Below the pieces are notes generated by a model. The model was not told the DNA's origin, made no database searches, and worked only from the letters and a program-made list of their open reading frames with translations. Below are positions 1,966-18,449 of a stretch of 24,507 nucleotides of DNA, piece after piece. The position numbers and the translations under genes were made by a program. Source of the DNA: a virus; IMG/VR virus record IMGVR_UViG_3300028550_001146, positions 1 to 24,507 of that record; one strand, given 5' to 3'. How positions within the stretch are numbered: the stretch's first letter is position 1; every line of letters starts with the position of its first letter.

Positions 1966-3138
1966 TTAGTATCCTGCCATTTCAGCCTTGAAGGTTTGCC
2001 GCTCTAACTCCCCATATTCTTTATGATGAGTTACGCATGTCATTGTTCGCCCTGCTCCGTAGCCTTTTCCTGCATGGTAAGCATCCGTGGCACATAATAC
2101 GCCCCATTGCTCCATAATCATGCCGCCACGCTCTTCTACCGTCTTATGATGCAAGTGTGCAGTGTAACCATAGACAAACGGACATTCGCCCCATTCTTTT
2201 CGATAATCCCTAGTCGCTACTTCGTACATCTTTTGTGCGTTGATACCGTCGCCATGATGCGTCAATATAAAAGTCTTGCCCCATACGAACGGGATAAATT
2301 TCTTTTGGTTACAGAGAACAGTTATTCGTGGCTCATTGTGAAAGTAAGCCGTCATAATTTGATTCATAAACAGGGAAGCGTTTTTATCATGATTACCCTG
2401 CACGTTTATCACGTAAACATGGGCGTGTTTTTCAAGTAATCGCGTTATCATTCTATGCATGAGTTTAGCCGCATGCTCGATAGTCCTGCCATACCTGCCA
2501 TCGGTATCTTGTGGCGTTCCTGCGGTCGTTAGTCCAGAAACAGAATCGGTATGCAAAAAATCACCCATGTTTAAGAACAATCCAGATTCAGCATTGGGCG
2601 ATCTTTTAATCAGGGATTCAAAACTTTGCTCCAGTAGGTTTTCTGCTATGTTCACATCATAGTTATGACCAGTCTCAGTTTTATAACTGTACATACCTAA
2701 GTGGTGGTCGCCTATGGCATAGACATTTAAACGATCTTGAATACTTGTAATTGGTGCGGTGACAGGCTTGTAAACATTTTTCACGCTATCAATCAGGCCA
2801 TTGGTGAAGTCTTGTAGTCGTTCCTCTAGCGCACTATCCTTGTCCCTTTCCTGCCTTACATACTGCCCTGCTAGGTTGCCGTCTTTATCGTACCGACTAG
2901 TGACAAATTTGGCACTGAAACCTTCCATCGTTTGATGGTCAACGTCCCGATGGGGAGCGACTGCATTTAATGAGGCTTTATTTTCTAGTTTCTTAAGGGA
3001 TTCGCGCAAGGTAGACGGGTCGATATTCAAAGCCCTAGCCGCGCCTTTAATAGTTCCATGCTCAATTAAGGCTTTAACATTCCTTGTTTGCTTTTCAGTA
3101 TCACAATATGACAACAACATTTCAGGATTAATGTGCAT
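1966..3138 (-). CDS. HTH-metallophosphoesterase fusion protein (390 aa)
   Basis: Residues about 15-55 form a helix-turn-helix (GTIKGAARALNIDPSTLRESLKK). From about 138 the protein is a calcineurin-like metallophosphoesterase: DHH in AIGDHHLG (142-148), GDFLH (192-196), GNHD (249-252), THHGD (293-297) and AHLHH (327-331). All the usual metal ligands seem present, so it should be an active two-metal phosphatase or nuclease of the SbcD/Mre11 superfamily type. It closes the leftward recombination operon and starts ten bases after the 23-aa peptide gene, with GGAG before the ATG. A role in DNA-end processing is inferred from the operon. The N-terminal DNA-binding module suggests sequence-specific targeting. 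Confidence 0.85.
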   Translation of the reverse strand: MHINPEMLLSYCDTEKQTRNVKALIEHGTIKGAARALNIDPSTLRESLKKLENKASLNAVAPHRDVDHQTMEGFSAKFVTSRYDKDGNLAGQYVRQERDKDSALEERLQDFTNGLIDSVKNVYKPVTAPITSIQDRLNVYAIGDHHLGMYSYKTETGHNYDVNIAENLLEQSFESLIKRSPNAESGLFLNMGDFLHTDSVSGLTTAGTPQDTDGRYGRTIEHAAKLMHRMITRLLEKHAHVYVINVQGNHDKNASLFMNQIMTAYFHNEPRITVLCNQKKFIPFVWGKTFILTHHGDGINAQKMYEVATRDYRKEWGECPFVYGYTAHLHHKTVEERGGMIMEQWGVLCATDAYHAGKGYGAGRTMTCVTHHKEYGELERQTFKAEMAGY

Positions 3139-3748: not shown

Positions 3749-4042
3749 TCAGAAGGGAATGTCTTCGTCTATAACAGCTTTGCTTTGTGGTGCAGATTGT
3801 GGTGCAGATTGTGCGCCATCTGTGAAAAACACCTTAACATTACCCAAGATTGGAGTCTGTACACCCTGCTCGCGCTCTTCTTTGTCCACACTTTGGCTGA
3901 TAAAACCGTTGTTTTCGTACTGATCTTGCTGATCTGTGTCTACAAACGTAGTTAGATCAAGGTAAGTACCCTTTGCCCCTGCATACAGGCGAGCTTTGTC
4001 GATCTTTGTAACGTCAATTCGTACTGATAAACCTATTTTCAT
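3749..4042 (-). CDS. Small phage SSB-like protein (97 aa)
   Basis: The start MKIGLSVRIDVTKIDKARLY matches a family of short phage proteins annotated as single-stranded DNA-binding. The beta-rich core runs to about residue 73. The tail is a linker with SAPQSAPQS and an acidic tip, DEDIPF, like the C-terminal tip of bacterial SSB that recruits partner enzymes. It follows the ERF and exonuclease genes, with an ATGA overlap to the exonuclease. It probably coats ssDNA produced by the exonuclease. At 97 aa it is shorter than host SSB and has no canonical long OB fold that I can confirm. Confidence 0.75.
   Translation of the reverse strand: MKIGLSVRIDVTKIDKARLYAGAKGTYLDLTTFVDTDQQDQYENNGFISQSVDKEEREQGVQTPILGNVKVFFTDGAQSAPQSAPQSKAVIDEDIPF
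3786..3809 (-). repeat. 12-bp tandem duplication in the SSB linker
   Basis: TGTGGTGCAGAT occurs twice in direct contact (3786-3797 and 3798-3809). It encodes the repeated SAPQ of the flexible linker and keeps the reading frame. This looks like simple slippage in a disordered linker. Confidence 0.75.
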
Positions 4043-5709: not shown

Positions 5710-5910
5710 ATGGATATCAAAAGATCAATCGAACATTTCATGTATGAACTACGCTTGAACCAGAATCAGCTTGCTATTAAAGCAGGGATGGACGTTTCTA
5801 CCCTTAGCCTTATTAGAAATCAGCGCAGATCACCTAACTTGGACTCATTAAATAAGCTCGCTACTGCTTGTGAAGTTAAAGTAAGCGAATTTATCGCGGC
5901 TGGTGAGTAA
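5710..5910 (+). CDS. Cro/C1-type helix-turn-helix regulator (66 aa)
   Basis: This is a single-domain XRE/Cro-type protein. The HTH lies at about 17-38 (NQNQLAIKAGMDVSTLSLIRNQ), followed by the usual SPNLDSLNKLATACEVKVSEF helices. It has no cleavage or oligomerisation domain, so it is more like Cro than CI. It is the first gene after the divergent control region and overlaps the initiator gene by one base (TAATG). It probably autoregulates and controls the leftward promoter through the dyad at 5643-5659 (inference). AAGGA precedes the ATG. Confidence 0.85.
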   Translation: MDIKRSIEHFMYELRLNQNQLAIKAGMDVSTLSLIRNQRRSPNLDSLNKLATACEVKVSEFIAAGE

Positions 5911-6644
5911 TGAATAAAGGATACTACGCAATTATTCCTGCCGATGTACGTTATGACGTACGTTTAACGCCTAATGCCAAACTTTTGTATGGTGAGATCA
6001 CCGCTTTATGCAATGAGAAAGGGTTTTGTTGGGCAATGAATGGTTACTTTGCAGATTTATACTCAGTAAGCAAGGTGTCAGTTAGTAAATGGGTTGGTAG
6101 CTTGCGTGATTGCGGGTATATAGAGTGCGAAGTGCAGTACAAAGAAGGTACTAAACAGATAACTAATCGCCACATAAAACTCTCTACCCCTATTAAAGAA
6201 ATCTTGGGTACCCCCATAAAGAAATCTTTAATACCCTCACAAAGAAAAGTTAAAGACCCTATTAAAGAAAAGTTTAAAGATAATACTACAGTTAATAATA
6301 CAGTTAATAATACAATTAATATGGGGGAAACAAGTTCCCCAAAAAAAGAAATCAAACCTAAAGGTAAGCATTTTGTTGAGCCTACACTGGATGATGTTAT
6401 TGATTACTGCAATTTAAATTCGTATCAGTGTGAACCTAAAGCCTTTGTTGACCACCATTCAGCAAGAGGTTGGGTCTTAAGCAATGGAAAGAAAATGGTC
6501 AAGTGGCAGTCAGCGCTGTCAACTTGGGAGCGTAATCACAAAAAATATGAGGCAAAAAATGGACTTAAACAAAATAACGTCAATAAAAGATCTGAATACG
6601 CTAGTAACATCAGGGACTACAACAAGGCAATGCGCGACTTTTAG
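5910..6644 (+). CDS. Lambda-O-like replication initiator (244 aa)
   Basis: Residues 1-85 form a winged-helix DNA-binding domain of the type found in phage replication proteins (LTPNAKLLYGEITALCNEKGFCWAMN, then SVSKVSVSKWVGSLRDCGYI). Residues about 92-145 are a low-complexity linker (TPIKE, TPIKK, TVNNTVNN) whose DNA holds the iteron array at 6187-6340. The C-terminal domain (about 152-225) has the phage-initiator pattern TLDDVIDYCNLN, FVDHHSARGW, KWQSALSTWERN. It should bind the iterons and recruit the loader encoded next. Its 3' end overlaps that gene by 86 bases. This is the same arrangement as lambda O-ori-P. Confidence 0.8.
   Translation: MNKGYYAIIPADVRYDVRLTPNAKLLYGEITALCNEKGFCWAMNGYFADLYSVSKVSVSKWVGSLRDCGYIECEVQYKEGTKQITNRHIKLSTPIKEILGTPIKKSLIPSQRKVKDPIKEKFKDNTTVNNTVNNTINMGETSSPKKEIKPKGKHFVEPTLDDVIDYCNLNSYQCEPKAFVDHHSARGWVLSNGKKMVKWQSALSTWERNHKKYEAKNGLKQNNVNKRSEYASNIRDYNKAMRDF
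6187..6278 (+). repeat. Four 23-bp iterons inside the initiator gene
   Basis: There are four consecutive units with an exact 23-bp period: 6187-6209, 6210-6232, 6233-6255 and 6256-6278. All share CCC at positions 2-4, AAAGAAA at 9-15 and TT at 18-19; units 1 and 2 share TAAAGAAATCTT, and units 3 and 4 share AAAGAAAAGTT. As 23 is not a multiple of three, the units are read in shifting frames (KEI, KKS, QRK, KEK), so DNA, not protein, is conserved. These are probable binding sites for the initiator. Confidence 0.85.
6279..6340 (+). other. Candidate replication origin: A+T-rich repeats and inverted repeat
   Basis: Directly after the iterons come three 12-bp A+T-rich units: TACAGTTAATAA twice (6287-6298, 6299-6310) and TACAATTAATAT (6311-6322). 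A perfect inverted repeat GGGGAA/TTCCCC with loop ACAAG (6324-6340) follows. Four initiator repeats, then an A+T-rich unwinding region inside the initiator gene, is how lambda ori is built. The 12-bp units are in frame, so protein slippage alone could explain them; the context supports a DNA unwinding element. Confidence 0.75.
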
Positions 6645-7038
6645 TGATAATGACAAAGATACGATAAATTATTTTTTTATGCGATTACAAAATGTTTACG
6701 GAACTGTAAAGATTCAAACCCAATGGCCTGATGTTGAAGATTTAAAAATGGCAAGGCGAGAATTTGGAAAGGTTATTGCTAAATTTGACAGGGAAAAGAT
6801 TGATAATGCTTTTGATCTGGTACACAAAGAAAGAAGATCAGGTAACAAGCGTTTTGATTGGCCTGACATTGACGCTATTATTGGCTTGTTAACCAATGAA
6901 GGGGTGTTTACTGGGTCTGCTGGCATGTTGGCGCACAAGATATATGAGCCAGAAAATTTGTTAGCGCATGGAACGAAGCAAGAGAGAAAGGAAATAGCTT
7001 TAGACGAGCTATCAAAATTAAAAGATATGTTTAAATAA
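6559..7038 (+). CDS. Lambda-P-like helicase loader (159 aa)
   Basis: The frame is open further upstream, but the ATG at 6559 has GAGG at 6549-6552 with six-base spacing, so it is chosen. The protein has the layout of replication protein P: an early helix with INYFFMRLQNVYG (36-48), an acidic W/P-rich turn, REFGKVIAKFDREKIDNAFDLV (67-88), then FDWPDIDAIIGLL (99-111), as in the P-family 'WP...F' region. It would deliver the host DnaB helicase to the initiator at the origin. Similarity is judged by pattern only. Its start lies within the 3' end of the initiator gene. Confidence 0.65.
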   Translation: MDLNKITSIKDLNTLVTSGTTTRQCATFSDNDKDTINYFFMRLQNVYGTVKIQTQWPDVEDLKMARREFGKVIAKFDREKIDNAFDLVHKERRSGNKRFDWPDIDAIIGLLTNEGVFTGSAGMLAHKIYEPENLLAHGTKQERKEIALDELSKLKDMFK

Positions 7039-7049
7039 GGAAATACAAA

Positions 7050-7529
7050 ATGACAAGTGATAGAAGAACAATATTAATTGAGTACAGAGGCACAAACCCT
7101 AAGTTAGTTTCTGGTCATATTTATAATAGAAACCACATAGCAAAAGCGTTCGGCATATCACGATCAACGGTTGCTAACAAGCTCAAAGGCAAGACAATAA
7201 TGGTCGATAATGACTTGATTTTATTGCAACCACAAAAATACCACAAAAAATCAGTGCCGGAAAAGTTAATGACTTATATGGGCGAAGAAACAAATGGGTT
7301 TAAGACTTATAAAAAATACACGTACAAAGAAATATCAGCATTGTCTGGAATTAAAATCAATAATTTAAACAAACGTATTGGAACTGATCTTGTTTTTGGT
7401 GCAAAACAAATAAGAAGCAAAGCTGTTAACCAATTAGTAAAAACAGACGGACACCGCGTAACTCAATTTGACTCTTACGCAGAAGTAATCAGCGCCAATT
7501 GGCTAAAGAGGAGTATTTTAAATGCCTGA
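7050..7529 (+). CDS. Hypothetical protein with two HTH-like segments (159 aa)
   Basis: No family is recognised. Two segments look like related helix-turn-helix units: HIAKAFGISRSTVANKLKG (about 29-47) and YTYKEISALSGIKINNLNKRIG (about 89-110). Each is followed by a hydrophobic strand-like stretch (MVDNDLILLQ; TDLVFGAKQI), which suggests an internal duplication. The composition is strongly basic. A DNA-binding or recombination-accessory role is inferred. It begins 11 bases after the loader stop, with AAGGA upstream, and overlaps the next gene by 8 bases. Confidence 0.6.
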   Translation: MTSDRRTILIEYRGTNPKLVSGHIYNRNHIAKAFGISRSTVANKLKGKTIMVDNDLILLQPQKYHKKSVPEKLMTYMGEETNGFKTYKKYTYKEISALSGIKINNLNKRIGTDLVFGAKQIRSKAVNQLVKTDGHRVTQFDSYAEVISANWLKRSILNA

Positions 7530-7956
7530 AGGTTATACAGTAAACAGTGACTCGCGTTTGGAAAGCTATGTTAAGTTTGCAACTGAACTATACGAGAAAA
7601 AGAAGTACGTTACGTTCAATTACAAGTTAGGCAAGCCAAGAACCATAAAACAAAATGACGCTATCTGGGCTTTCTGTAAAGACATAGCAAACAAGTGCAA
7701 CAATGCAGGGTTTGAAATGCAAACGACTAGCCCACTGTTAAAGAATCCAATAGAAACTCCGTGGACTTCTCGCAGTGTTATGGATAAATTGTGGATGGCA
7801 GTACAAAAAGCAATGTATCCTAACAAACCAGAAAGCAGTAGCGAGTTAGATACTTGGGAAGTAGCACCTGTAGCTGAAACTTTAACAAGACATTTAGGTG
7901 AGACTCATGGCATTGGTGTATTGTTTGCCAAGCAAGCTATGGACAAGGGTGTCTAG
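7522..7956 (+). CDS. NinB-like conserved phage recombination protein (144 aa)
   Basis: The pattern KQNDAIWAFCKDIANKCNNAGFEM (about 38-61), then a TPW-like ETPWTSRSVMDKLWMAVQKAM (73-93) and a C-terminal EVAPVAETLTRHLGETHGI (114-132), matches a widespread phage family with NinB-like organisation (many-residue helical core, KQN-x-x-W start). NinB/Orf of lambda binds ssDNA and assists recombination. The assignment is tentative, but the place before a NinG-like gene agrees. AGAGGAG (7506-7512) precedes the ATG. Confidence 0.6.
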   Translation: MPEGYTVNSDSRLESYVKFATELYEKKKYVTFNYKLGKPRTIKQNDAIWAFCKDIANKCNNAGFEMQTTSPLLKNPIETPWTSRSVMDKLWMAVQKAMYPNKPESSSELDTWEVAPVAETLTRHLGETHGIGVLFAKQAMDKGV

Positions 7957-8623: not shown

Positions 8624-9028
8624 ATGGCCGTAACACTGCGTTCTAAATGTTTAACTGCGATACAAAAGTTAGCACGAATATCAGCCGCAGATGAATATGG
8701 CATGGTTGAATGTGTTTCTTGTGATAAGAGAATGCACTGGAAGGAGTGTGACGGTGGTCACTACATAGCCAAAGGTAGCTCGTCTTACTGGGCACTTGAG
8801 ATGGAGTGCGTACACCCCCAGTGCAAAGGATGTAACGGTTTCGGTATGAAGCATGGCAGTGCAGAAGGTCAGTACACGCTATGGATGATTGATATGTACG
8901 GTGAAGACTTTGTTAGAGAAATGCATAGAGACAAGCGCAAGATCAAAAAGTTATACACTGCTGACTACAGAGAAATGCTAAAAGAGTTCAATGACTTAAT
9001 TAAATACCATGAGGAGAGACTACAATGA
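8624..9028 (+). CDS. ninG: NinG/Rap-like recombination nuclease (134 aa)
   Basis: The protein has the NinG arrangement: CVSCDKR (30-36), then GGHYIAKG (44-51), CVHPQCKGCN (62-71), and a C-terminal basic helix region (DKRKIKKLYTADYREMLKEF). The cysteines C30, C33, C67 and C70 could bind zinc, and GGHY is the conserved HNH-like core of the family. Lambda NinG (Rap) cuts Holliday junctions and D-loops during phage recombination. GGAGA precedes the ATG, and its stop overlaps the next start (ATGA). Confidence 0.85.
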   Translation: MAVTLRSKCLTAIQKLARISAADEYGMVECVSCDKRMHWKECDGGHYIAKGSSSYWALEMECVHPQCKGCNGFGMKHGSAEGQYTLWMIDMYGEDFVREMHRDKRKIKKLYTADYREMLKEFNDLIKYHEERLQ

Positions 9029-15410: not shown

Positions 15411-18400
15411 TTATAAATCACTCGATGCTTTTTGAACTTCATCTAGTCCATGTCTTATATAAAATAAATTCTGCAAAGGTATAAGTCTTCTAAGTGTTCT
15501 TATGTCTGATTCAGTCATTTCACCTTCAGATGTAATTGCATTGGTTGCCGCTACAGTAGTGCTTAACAAGCTACCAAAAGTTGGCCCCAACAAAGACTCA
15601 GAAACAGTGCGAGCTACTTGCTTAGAAGCAGGGGCATCAATTCCTAGTAACGGCCTTAACCCTAAAGAGTTTCCTGATATCTTTTCTATTGTGTTAGTAA
15701 TTTCTCCAATAACACCTATAGCGCCCGATCTATCAATTCCTTCTGTAACCCATACAGCAGGATCATCGCTAACATCTCTTCCTGCAATTTTCTGTTTAAG
15801 ATAATAAGTAAACATTCCCATACCAACAAGTGAAGCAAGACCGCCCACTGCATTGTGATCCTGATTCTGCAATGCGGCAATAAAGACTCGCTGGGTAGCA
15901 GACAATATAAACGATCTAAACTGACCAACAGTTTTACCCATTTCAGTAGACATAAACAATGGCTTTTCTTGTCCGGGAATTAGGATTACGCGATCACTTT
16001 CTTTGCGTACAGCCGCGCCCCACATTCTTTCTAGGTCTGGTCTATCCCAATTCTTAGCATTAGTCAGCCACACACCATCTTCATTCTTGCCATGCTTTAC
16101 TACTTGTTTGTACATGTCCTTTGCTGATTGCTCGTCAATACCTAATCGAGCTAGGCGCTTGTCATAAACTCCTTTTTTTAATCCATCAAAGATAGATGTT
16201 TGCATAGTAACAGCGTGAAGTTGCTTCATTCCTGCTGTCCAATGATCTAAGAAGTTTATCTTTCCAAACTTGCTAGAAGCAGATCGCAACCCTCTTTCGA
16301 TAGCTGTACCGCCTTGAGCGTAATCGCCAACATCAGCAATAATTTCTGACTTGCCTGACATAATGGCATCAGTGCCAACACCATAACGCTTTAACTCAGA
16401 AGCCGCTTCTTTAAATTGTTTTGTGTTTTTAATTAACGGCCCAAGACCACTCTTAAATGTTTTAGCAAAACCTTCAGCCATAAATACACGAGAAACATCA
16501 GGTAAACTAGAAACAGTTACACCACCAAGCAAGCGCAAATAGTTTAAGTCTCTTGAAGACCTAGCCATACGAGTCCAGATATTATCTTCAGAAAATCCGT
16601 AGACACCACGAATACGATCACGCATTCCTGCAATGTCTCTAACGTCACTTTCTCGTTGCTTTTCTAACTTTTCTTGTTGCTTTGGAGTAAGTGATTTGTC
16701 ATTTTTTTTCTTGGCATACCATGTGTTAATATCTTTAAGTTGATCGGTCATATTAACATCATCAAACTTTCTAACTAACTCAATATCTCCAGCTACATTT
16801 TGAAGATACCTAGCGCCTAATGTCTCAATGTCATTCTCTAAAAACTCTTCAACTATTTCATCGTCAATTTGAAATACACGATTTCTTAATGGGCCACGTA
16901 ATGTAGTGCCTTTAATGCCTTTGTTATTTACACCGCCTGTAGGTGAACCGCTACCTAACTTCCAATCATAAGGAAGTCTACCATCTGGACTGCCTTGTAT
17001 TCTTTGTGCTATTTCTTCAGAAAGAGACTCATAATCTTGACGCTCAAAATCCATGCCTTTCTTAAACTCAGCTTTATCTATGATAGCTTGAAGATTATCT
17101 TTTTCTTTTCCTGTTGCTGTAGCAATTTTCTCAGAAGCCGCCTTAGCATCTTCAAATAATTTTACGTCTTTTTCTGCAAGCCAGTTAGAAACTTTATTAA
17201 CAAACTGAGGAAAGTTAGCTGAAATTTTATTTTTGTTCCACACACGATTTAGATAGTTATTAGCTGTTTTAACATCTACATCTTCAGGAAGTAATTTTAA
17301 GGCTACCATTTCATCTTTAAGAGGAGTGTATAATTCTTTATTCCAGTAATCAGCGGAAGCCTTGACTTGAGGTATGTCGCTATCGCCTTTTCTAATTGCA
17401 GTAGATACAGCTTCATTAAACTGCTTTCGATTCATCTTTCCACCAGCACTTTTATACTCTGCAAAAAGATTAGCATTGTTTTGCAATGATGTGCCTAATT
17501 TTCCTGAATGAGCTTTAGCTAAAGACTCAGCCGCTTGAAGAACATTGCCATCCATTTTTATGGGGTTCTCAGCCATCATAGTAGCAATTAATCTAGTTGT
17601 TGGATTCTCACTTGTGATTGTGCGAGACAACGGATCAAAGCCTAATAACTTTACTAGTTTTTTAGCTATCTTTCCCGAAACTTGAGTGTCACCAAGAACT
17701 TGCTGTGCGCCAACACTGCCCGAACCTACAGGCTTAGTAACAGCGTCAATAGTAGGATTAATACCTTCTGCAATCTTAGGCTCAACATTCATAACATTTT
17801 CGTATGCGTCGATCATTTTAGCATCAACACCATACGTTGCTAACTTAGCCGCTGTGCCTCCTAAAACGCCACCTAAGAGCATTCCAGCGGAAATGTTAGT
17901 AGCAGACTCTCCGTAAGTTCTAGTAAGCTGTTGCGTGTGTAAAGCCGCTTCTTGGATAGCTGTGTCAACACCAACAACCGAACCCATTACAGCCGCGCCC
18001 TTTAGAATGCCTTTTCCTGCTCTATAAGTATTTAGTGCAACACCGCCTATAGACAATAAAGAAATAGGGTCAGCCATCATTACAGGCAAGCCAACAATAA
18101 AAGAAGTAGCTCCACCTTGAGCCATTGTTTCTCTGTCGGTTTTTTCTCTAGTCATTTGGCGACGTACAGCTTCTAACTCTTCATCATTATCCGCATACAG
18201 CGCATTGCTAACAAAAGCCTGATCTAGTCTTTCATCTTCGGTAAATAATCCATAAGGGTCGTAATCTGGGTTATCTTTTGTAGAATCAGGTAAGCCAGAT
18301 TCTTCAGAAACAAATGATCCAATAATATTTTCTTGTCGATAAAACGCCTTGGCAATTTCACCAACTGAAGGACGCTCATCTTCTTCTAAAGCAAGAGGAA

Positions 18401-18449
18401 CTAATTTTGGAGCTATTAACTCTTGATCTGGCGATGCAACAAAACCCAT
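15411..18449 (-). CDS. Internal virion (ejection) protein, T7 gp16-like (1012 aa)
   Basis: This is a large protein in the position and order of T7 gp16, after gp14-like and gp15-like genes. A hydrophobic, Gly-rich region at about 112-205 (TSFIVGLPVMMADPISLLSIGG, GMLLGGVLGGTAAKL) may insert in membranes. The rest is mostly helical and charged; DDPAVWVTEGIDRSGAIGVIGE lies near the end. T7 gp16 carries an N-terminal transglycosylase and forms the DNA channel across the envelope. No such lysozyme motif is seen at the N-terminus here, and at 1012 aa it is shorter than T7 gp16 (1318). Confidence 0.75.
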   Translation of the reverse strand: MGFVASPDQELIAPKLVPLALEEDERPSVGEIAKAFYRQENIIGSFVSEESGLPDSTKDNPDYDPYGLFTEDERLDQAFVSNALYADNDEELEAVRRQMTREKTDRETMAQGGATSFIVGLPVMMADPISLLSIGGVALNTYRAGKGILKGAAVMGSVVGVDTAIQEAALHTQQLTRTYGESATNISAGMLLGGVLGGTAAKLATYGVDAKMIDAYENVMNVEPKIAEGINPTIDAVTKPVGSGSVGAQQVLGDTQVSGKIAKKLVKLLGFDPLSRTITSENPTTRLIATMMAENPIKMDGNVLQAAESLAKAHSGKLGTSLQNNANLFAEYKSAGGKMNRKQFNEAVSTAIRKGDSDIPQVKASADYWNKELYTPLKDEMVALKLLPEDVDVKTANNYLNRVWNKNKISANFPQFVNKVSNWLAEKDVKLFEDAKAASEKIATATGKEKDNLQAIIDKAEFKKGMDFERQDYESLSEEIAQRIQGSPDGRLPYDWKLGSGSPTGGVNNKGIKGTTLRGPLRNRVFQIDDEIVEEFLENDIETLGARYLQNVAGDIELVRKFDDVNMTDQLKDINTWYAKKKNDKSLTPKQQEKLEKQRESDVRDIAGMRDRIRGVYGFSEDNIWTRMARSSRDLNYLRLLGGVTVSSLPDVSRVFMAEGFAKTFKSGLGPLIKNTKQFKEAASELKRYGVGTDAIMSGKSEIIADVGDYAQGGTAIERGLRSASSKFGKINFLDHWTAGMKQLHAVTMQTSIFDGLKKGVYDKRLARLGIDEQSAKDMYKQVVKHGKNEDGVWLTNAKNWDRPDLERMWGAAVRKESDRVILIPGQEKPLFMSTEMGKTVGQFRSFILSATQRVFIAALQNQDHNAVGGLASLVGMGMFTYYLKQKIAGRDVSDDPAVWVTEGIDRSGAIGVIGEITNTIEKISGNSLGLRPLLGIDAPASKQVARTVSESLLGPTFGSLLSTTVAATNAITSEGEMTESDIRTLRRLIPLQNLFYIRHGLDEVQKASSDL

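Follow-up and report, generated by a model that had tools for sequence, protein, structure and literature searches.

The window, i.e. the whole 24,507-nucleotide stretch of viral DNA that was analysed (positions 1 to 24,507 of IMG/VR record IMGVR_UViG_3300028550_001146), contains a replication initiator gene (5910-6644, + strand, 244 aa), which is directly preceded by a Cro/CI-type HTH gene (5710-5910, +; Pfam HTH_3, E 4.1e-7) and overlapped at its end by a gene for a 159-aa candidate helicase loader (6559-7038, +). The initiator was recognised by Pfam HTH_36 (PF13730; E 5.2e-9, 36.2 bits against a cut-off of 25) and by PHROG 19658 'replication initiation protein' (E 2.2e-31), matches that place it among the HTH_36 phage replication initiators (PHROG 19658, 270). 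An AlphaFold2 model based on an 11-sequence alignment predicts a winged helix at residues ~11-91 and a C-domain of helices at residues 160-243, separated by a linker that is predicted to be disordered (residues 96-152, pLDDT <50). The codons of the recognition helix (residues 55-67, including V56, S59 and K60) lie at 6072-6110 (+) and were assigned from the AlphaFold2 helix and from the arm coupling described below. Among the structures closest to the model are the initiator or Rep N-domains 4pql, 4pt7 and 5kbj (modest E-values of 6e-3 to 3e-2), which we take to belong to pSK41-type RepA_N plasmid initiators; the resemblance is one of fold only, and Pfam gave no RepA_N match for the window initiator.

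Repeats inside the initiator gene

Beginning ~280 bp into the initiator gene, four iterons follow one another on the + strand: iteron 1 at 6187-6209 (CCCCTATTAAAGAAATCTTGGGT, codon frame 1), iteron 2 at 6210-6232 (ACCCCCATAAAGAAATCTTTAAT, frame 0), iteron 3 at 6233-6255 (ACCCTCACAAAGAAAAGTTAAAG, frame 2) and iteron 4 at 6256-6278 (ACCCTATTAAAGAAAAGTTTAAA, frame 1), the last one containing the inverted repeat TTAAA-GAAAAG-TTTAA. All four units share CCC at 2-4, AAAGAAA at 9-15 and TT at 18-19 and encode, in order, the peptides IKEI, KKSL, QRKV and IKEK. They are followed by three A+T-rich 12-mers (6279-6314, +; cores AATACTACA at 6282-6290, AATAATACA at 6294-6302 and AATAATACA at 6306-6314), the first core lying 10 nt downstream of the A-run of iteron 4, and by the stem-loop GGGGAA-ACAAG-TTCCCC (6324-6340, +; arms 6324-6329 and 6335-6340). 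A first-pass annotation of the sequence had listed the four 23-bp units with their shared bases and peptides, the three 12-mers and the GGGGAA/TTCCCC inverted repeat; all were found where it had placed them when the sequence was re-read, and Tandem Repeats Finder returned a period of 23 at 6185-6280 and a period of 12 at 6281-6321.

The four units have a mean pairwise identity of 0.703. When synonymous codons were shuffled within the initiator gene, the value reached at most 0.60 if any start and period was allowed (0/1000 as high as the real array) and 0.64 with start and period fixed (0/2000), dinucleotide shuffles reached 0.57 (0/1000), and the runner-up four-copy repeat elsewhere in the window, scored in 735-bp tiles, had 0.54. 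Since the synonymous shuffles lose the repeat, protein selection alone is insufficient to produce the iterons, which bears out what the first-pass annotation had argued. Selection on a repetitive disordered linker would be in keeping with the low complexity and predicted disorder of the part of the protein that the iterons encode, and with the recurrence of the linker peptide KVKDPIKE in several relatives; it is at odds with a period that is not a multiple of three, with the loss of the repeat in synonymous shuffles, with a nearly fixed choice of NNT codons and with the near absence of a synonymous control pattern from initiators (see below), and we regard it as scarcely credible.

Elsewhere in the window, a 97-aa ORF (3749-4042, -) ends in DEDIPF, reminiscent of the acidic tip of single-strand binding proteins, and includes a 12-bp tandem repeat (3785-3813) encoding SAPQ units. 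A 390-aa protein (1966-3138, -) has an N-terminal HTH and, by eye, the metallophosphoesterase-type motifs GDHHLG and GNHDK; Pfam gives weak HTH matches only. Lambdoid-style early genes at 7522-7956 and 8624-9028 (NinB-like and NinG-like by profile) stand beside a podovirus-type internal virion protein (15411-18449, -; PHROG 342), and judged by this gene content the virus is a mosaic. The GC skew, proposed as a check by the first-pass annotation, does change sign near 6.0 kb; the coding strand changes at the same place, so that the skew is no independent evidence.

Protein searches with the initiator recovered 35 viral loci, and tblastn returned 90 phage records, chiefly from Staphylococcus and Lactobacillus and also from Enterococcus, Lactococcus, Fusobacterium and Cellulophaga; a search of genome contigs with the initiator protein gave no match. 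The comparison covered ~160 relatives; the class is widespread, with members in marine viral contigs and in phages or prophages of Bacillota, Fusobacteriota and Bacteroidota. Downstream of the N-domain, the DNA was inspected one sequence at a time in 15 phages and in 22 viral sequences other than the window, and repeats followed by A+T-rich 12-mers were present in every one of these initiators except that of Lactobacillus phage phiLdb. In this phage (L050 2001-2500) the N-domain is broken by stops ahead of the iterons and a different replication gene comes next; its initiator has apparently been replaced. Two class initiators come from contigs that binning had assigned to Thermoplasmatales and Euryarchaeota (L438, L461), which are probably misbinned phage contigs. 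The record of a 23-kb circular plasmid of S. epidermidis (L470 1501-2202) contains the same type of initiator with iterons and 12-mers and a DnaB-like helicase downstream, and could be a phage-plasmid or a plasmid with this type of origin. The Rep proteins of Tuc2009 and TP901-1, annotated with experimental origins or as replication proteins, were considered and fall outside this initiator subfamily.

Iteron symmetry and the recognition helix

The first-pass annotation had described the iterons by their 23-bp period and shared bases. The repeats are real, but the description is incomplete: beyond a direct repeat, the unit is an inverted repeat around a sense-strand A-run, and among phages the arms vary while the symmetry is kept, as in Cellulophaga phage phi39:1 (ACGACAAAATTGTC), Lactobacillus phage PL-1 (CCGAAAAATCGG), Fusobacterium phage Funu2 (CACGAAAAATCGTG) and Enterococcus phage SEsuP-1 (GTGAAGAAAACTTCAC). 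In 74 of 87 non-redundant origins, at least three of the four bases located 14 to 11 nt ahead of the first 12-mer core are A. Arm symmetry was evaluated on 58 distinct 18-mers in one register fixed for all, so that the centre was not chosen; the fractions of complementary pairs at offsets 2, 3 and 4 were 0.69, 0.71 and 0.55 versus 0.38, 0.48 and 0.26 with shuffled partners (0/2000 each), and sliding the partners by one or two columns gave no comparable excess at these offsets. Of 160 origins, 141 have iteron cores in two or more codon frames, most often spaced by 22-24 bp. The C-rich box between iterons reads CCC in 92 and GGG in 38 of the 160 origins (noticed for instance in L023 3715-4419, L033 4974-5702, L056 and L127), while the central A-run is mostly on the sense strand; the box seems able to flip independently.

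N-domains were aligned for the 102 origins in which the core was clear (effective number 67), and mutual information between their residues and the arm bases was determined. The strongest couplings were those of arm base 4 with residue 56 and of arm base 2 with residue 60, found in the left arm and, independently, in the right arm; arm base 5 couples with residue 59. As a group, the recognition-helix columns 53-61 ranked above the other 75 variable columns (p 7e-5 for the left and 5e-4 for the right arm). In weighted counts, A accompanies V56 (13/13), and G accompanies R56 (9/9) and, mostly, E or D at this position; at residue 60, C is found with R (18/21) and A with K (13/18). The permutation test for coupling leaves relatedness in, and kinship is controlled only in part, by the ranking of columns and by a held-out set of prophage loci with N-domains less than 85% identical to any training sequence. 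Rules derived from the viral contigs predicted the base correctly in 14 of 14 held-out origins at offset 4 and in 10 of 10 at offset 2, the effective numbers being below 14 and 10 since some of these loci are mutually related. For the window, V56 and K60 predict A at offsets 4 and 2, and iteron 4, with the left arm TAAAG beside AAAA, has both. The simplest reading of these correlations is direct contact between residues 56 and 60 and the arm bases. Aligning homologous initiator genes, as the first-pass annotation had advised, thus showed that iteron DNA and recognition helix change in concert while the inverted symmetry of the iterons persists, and that the encoded peptide follows the DNA.

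The arms also bear on the nature of the molecule that is recognised. Inverted arms around AAAA would fold in RNA, where the stem-loop at 6324-6340 could work as well, and the repeats might accordingly be mRNA hairpins acting on translation or RNA stability. This reading is disfavoured by arm bases that track a DNA-recognition helix, and by the arm mismatches, of which GT/TG make up 12 of 46, no more than CA/AC (12), although RNA pairing would favour G-U; we consider it very improbable. Binding of DNA by the initiator could alternatively mean that the repeats are an operator autoregulating the initiator operon, not an origin, given that winged-helix proteins often bind their own gene and that helix-arm coupling speaks for binding and not for replication. 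Against an operator stand the position of the array this far inside the gene, the motif-specific A+T-rich element at a nearly fixed distance from it and the frequent adjacency of the initiator gene to helicase or helicase-loader genes, which leave a purely regulatory role unlikely. The array may regulate as well as serve as an origin, in which case regulation would be additional.

The 12-mers, the stem-loop and the exchanged cassette

The three 12-mers are the proposed unwinding element, a role suggested by their position, composition and motif specificity. Across origins, 12-mers ending in AATAATACA follow the iterons at a nearly fixed distance. A pattern defined on DNA only, AATAATACANNTAATAATACA, was found in at least 120 viral-contig stretches, and at 94 of the 117 loci examined among the matches listed it falls within an ORF that the initiator profile recognises, several of the others being contig ends. 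The synonymous control pattern with ACT for ACA was in an initiator at 1 of 84 loci. Two further variants of the 12-mer pattern lay in an initiator ORF at 117 of 121 and 78 of 91 loci, and in bacterial and archaeal genomes this applied to 35 of 44 sites of one 12-mer pattern. As sets gathered with the 12-mer pattern are biased towards the motif, statements on the motif itself are based on the synonymous control and on 23 initiators that had been identified from protein similarity only. In these, ACA is the Thr codon in 60 of 63 NxT motifs but at only 94 of 318 other Thr positions (Fisher p 8e-24), and AAT encodes the first Asn of the motif in 61 of 63 cases versus 315 of 441. The specificity of the motif is therefore for initiator genes rather than for the NNT peptide that it encodes. 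Of 245 distances between 12-mers, 241 are 12 or 15 bases, so that these repeats, unlike the iterons, keep to one codon phase; translation would end if they were read in the TAA frame. Boxes for the host DnaA were not enriched, with exact matches in 1 of 160 origins versus 1.7 in shuffles and matches with one mismatch in 40 versus 50.

By analogy with plasmid Rep proteins, which recognise their 13-mers in single-stranded form (PMC4081077, PMC10797057), we propose that the 12-mer element is read by the initiator itself. In RK2, A+T-rich 13-mers lie beside the iterons, their exact sequence matters and they are read by the initiator (PMC4081077); the window differs in that single-strand binding is a proposal here and in that the motif is common to phages of several phyla. 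In a literature text search for TAATAATACA, the matches listed were unrelated by title.

The GGGGAA/TTCCCC repeat at 6324-6340 lies at the edge of an exchanged cassette (see below) and recurs in close relatives. Of 150 distinct segments downstream of the 12-mers, 36 have a strong stem-loop in the first 70 bases, compared with a mean of 2.6 in dinucleotide shuffles, 0 of 145 for the following 70 bases and 12 of 150 for a control segment taken from the N-domain. Stem sequences vary (TGTCGGG/CCCGACA, GTTGAAC/GTTCAAC, CCTTCGA/TCGAAGG, ACGTGC/GCACGT), and candidate roles are a loader or primase site or a recombination edge.

Compared with its relative L006, the 5' half of the initiator gene is identical mostly at 27-30 of 30 positions per 30 bp up to ~6330; identity is gone after ~6341 and back at 96.8% from 7047. 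On this comparison the C-terminal half of the initiator and the next gene are exchanged as one cassette (6342-7046, +). The next gene occurs together with initiator tails of the type SEYAS...DYNK (the window, L005, L013 and L014), whereas the next position is without it where the tail is LTDxSWAD or LTDTTWYGE (L006, L012, L015, L016, L017, L020 and L023). The cassette and this pattern support the view that C-domain and next gene work as a pair. In annotated phages the next gene is often, though not in all, a DnaC/DnaI-type loader or a DnaB-type helicase. The first-pass annotation had called the window's next gene P-like. A gene does follow the initiator, but the P-like assignment is not established: the match to PHROG 109 'P-like helicase loader' is weak (E 0.14, and 0.11 for a 62%-identical homologue), Pfam gave no match, including PF06992, profile comparison with lambda P gave none, and the predicted structure was too poor to be used for comparison. 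The tails LTDTTWYGE, LTDTSWAD and LTDRSWAN (L006 5001-5735, L017 4031-4699 and L023 3715-4419) resemble the end of lambda O, LTNTDWIYGVDL (L424 687-1586); a common short tail recruiting helicase or loader is possible, the profile comparison not being significant.

Relation to known origins and proposed mechanism

The lambda iteron is a 19-bp imperfect inverted repeat with an A-tract, located in the middle of O, and the minimal unwinding unit consists of two iterons plus the AT-rich region (PMC7466680). The window shares this plan, with four iterons in the middle of an initiator gene, 20-24 bp apart and built as inverted repeats with an A-run at the centre, then a region that is A+T-rich by position and composition, and then, in lambda, the helicase-loader gene, for which the window's next gene is only a candidate. 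The families differ, with Phage_rep_O in lambda (lambda O matches PF04492 at 5.7e-36) and HTH_36, the only Pfam match, in the window, and so do the arm sequences; no AATAATACA 12-mers occur in the lambda O gene. The initiator profile does not score lambda O and direct profile comparison with lambda O gave no match either; a distant link exists in that both proteins match PHROG 678, 345 and 391. The first-pass label of a lambda-type origin consequently holds for the plan of the mechanism and the in-gene iterons but not for the protein family.

In pSK41-type plasmids the N-domain of the initiator binds boxes central in its own rep gene, and the linker encoded there is dispensable (PMC5703833). 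These initiators are RepA_N and not HTH_36, are subject to plasmid copy control, and their structural score against the window initiator is weak only. In pPR9, an HTH_36 domain with an in-gene origin is swapped onto a pSK41-type C-domain, and the mini-replicon replicates autonomously (PMC5703833). Its in-gene repeats are likewise followed by AAT-rich NNT codons, whereas its N-domain lies outside this subfamily by profile and AATAATACA is absent. As a direct functional anchor, pPR9 rep fails at the level of the subfamily. Given lambda, the pSK41-type plasmids and pPR9, in-gene origins are a kind already known. In the literature searched, no description was found of the shared 12-mer, of its specificity at the DNA level or of the residue-base code. 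A review of bacteriophage replication modules by Weigel and Seitz (2006), cited in PMC6669507 and outside that search, may describe in-gene origins of such phages.

We conclude from the sequence comparisons that 6187-6340 is very probably a theta-type origin (probability about 0.92), placed in the part of the gene that encodes the disordered linker. Each iteron would be bound by a dimer of the winged-helix N-domain, the two recognition helices reading the two arms with the A-run between them. Several bound dimers would form a nucleoprotein complex and the adjacent 12-mers would be opened, after which the C-domain of the initiator and, in this phage, the protein of the next gene would bring in the replicative helicase. 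We infer dimer binding, duplex opening, helicase loading and origin function alike.

A broader reading, which we hold tentatively and at somewhat below even odds, is that this origin represents a very large class in which residues 56 and 60 form a two-residue code, AATAATACA is read after melting by the initiator and not by DnaA, and the stem-loop aids assembly of the helicase or its loader. AATAATACA would then be the same across phyla because the initiator, and not the host DnaA, reads it. The specificity domain and its site form one continuous stretch, so that initiator and origin would travel together and recombination just after the origin would swap the helicase-recruiting parts with recognition intact. 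If this is true, the origins of many uncultured phages and prophages would be findable from sequence alone, the bases bound by an initiator would be partly predictable from two amino acids, and the reading of an unwinding element as single strand by the initiator would become a question testable across many phages.
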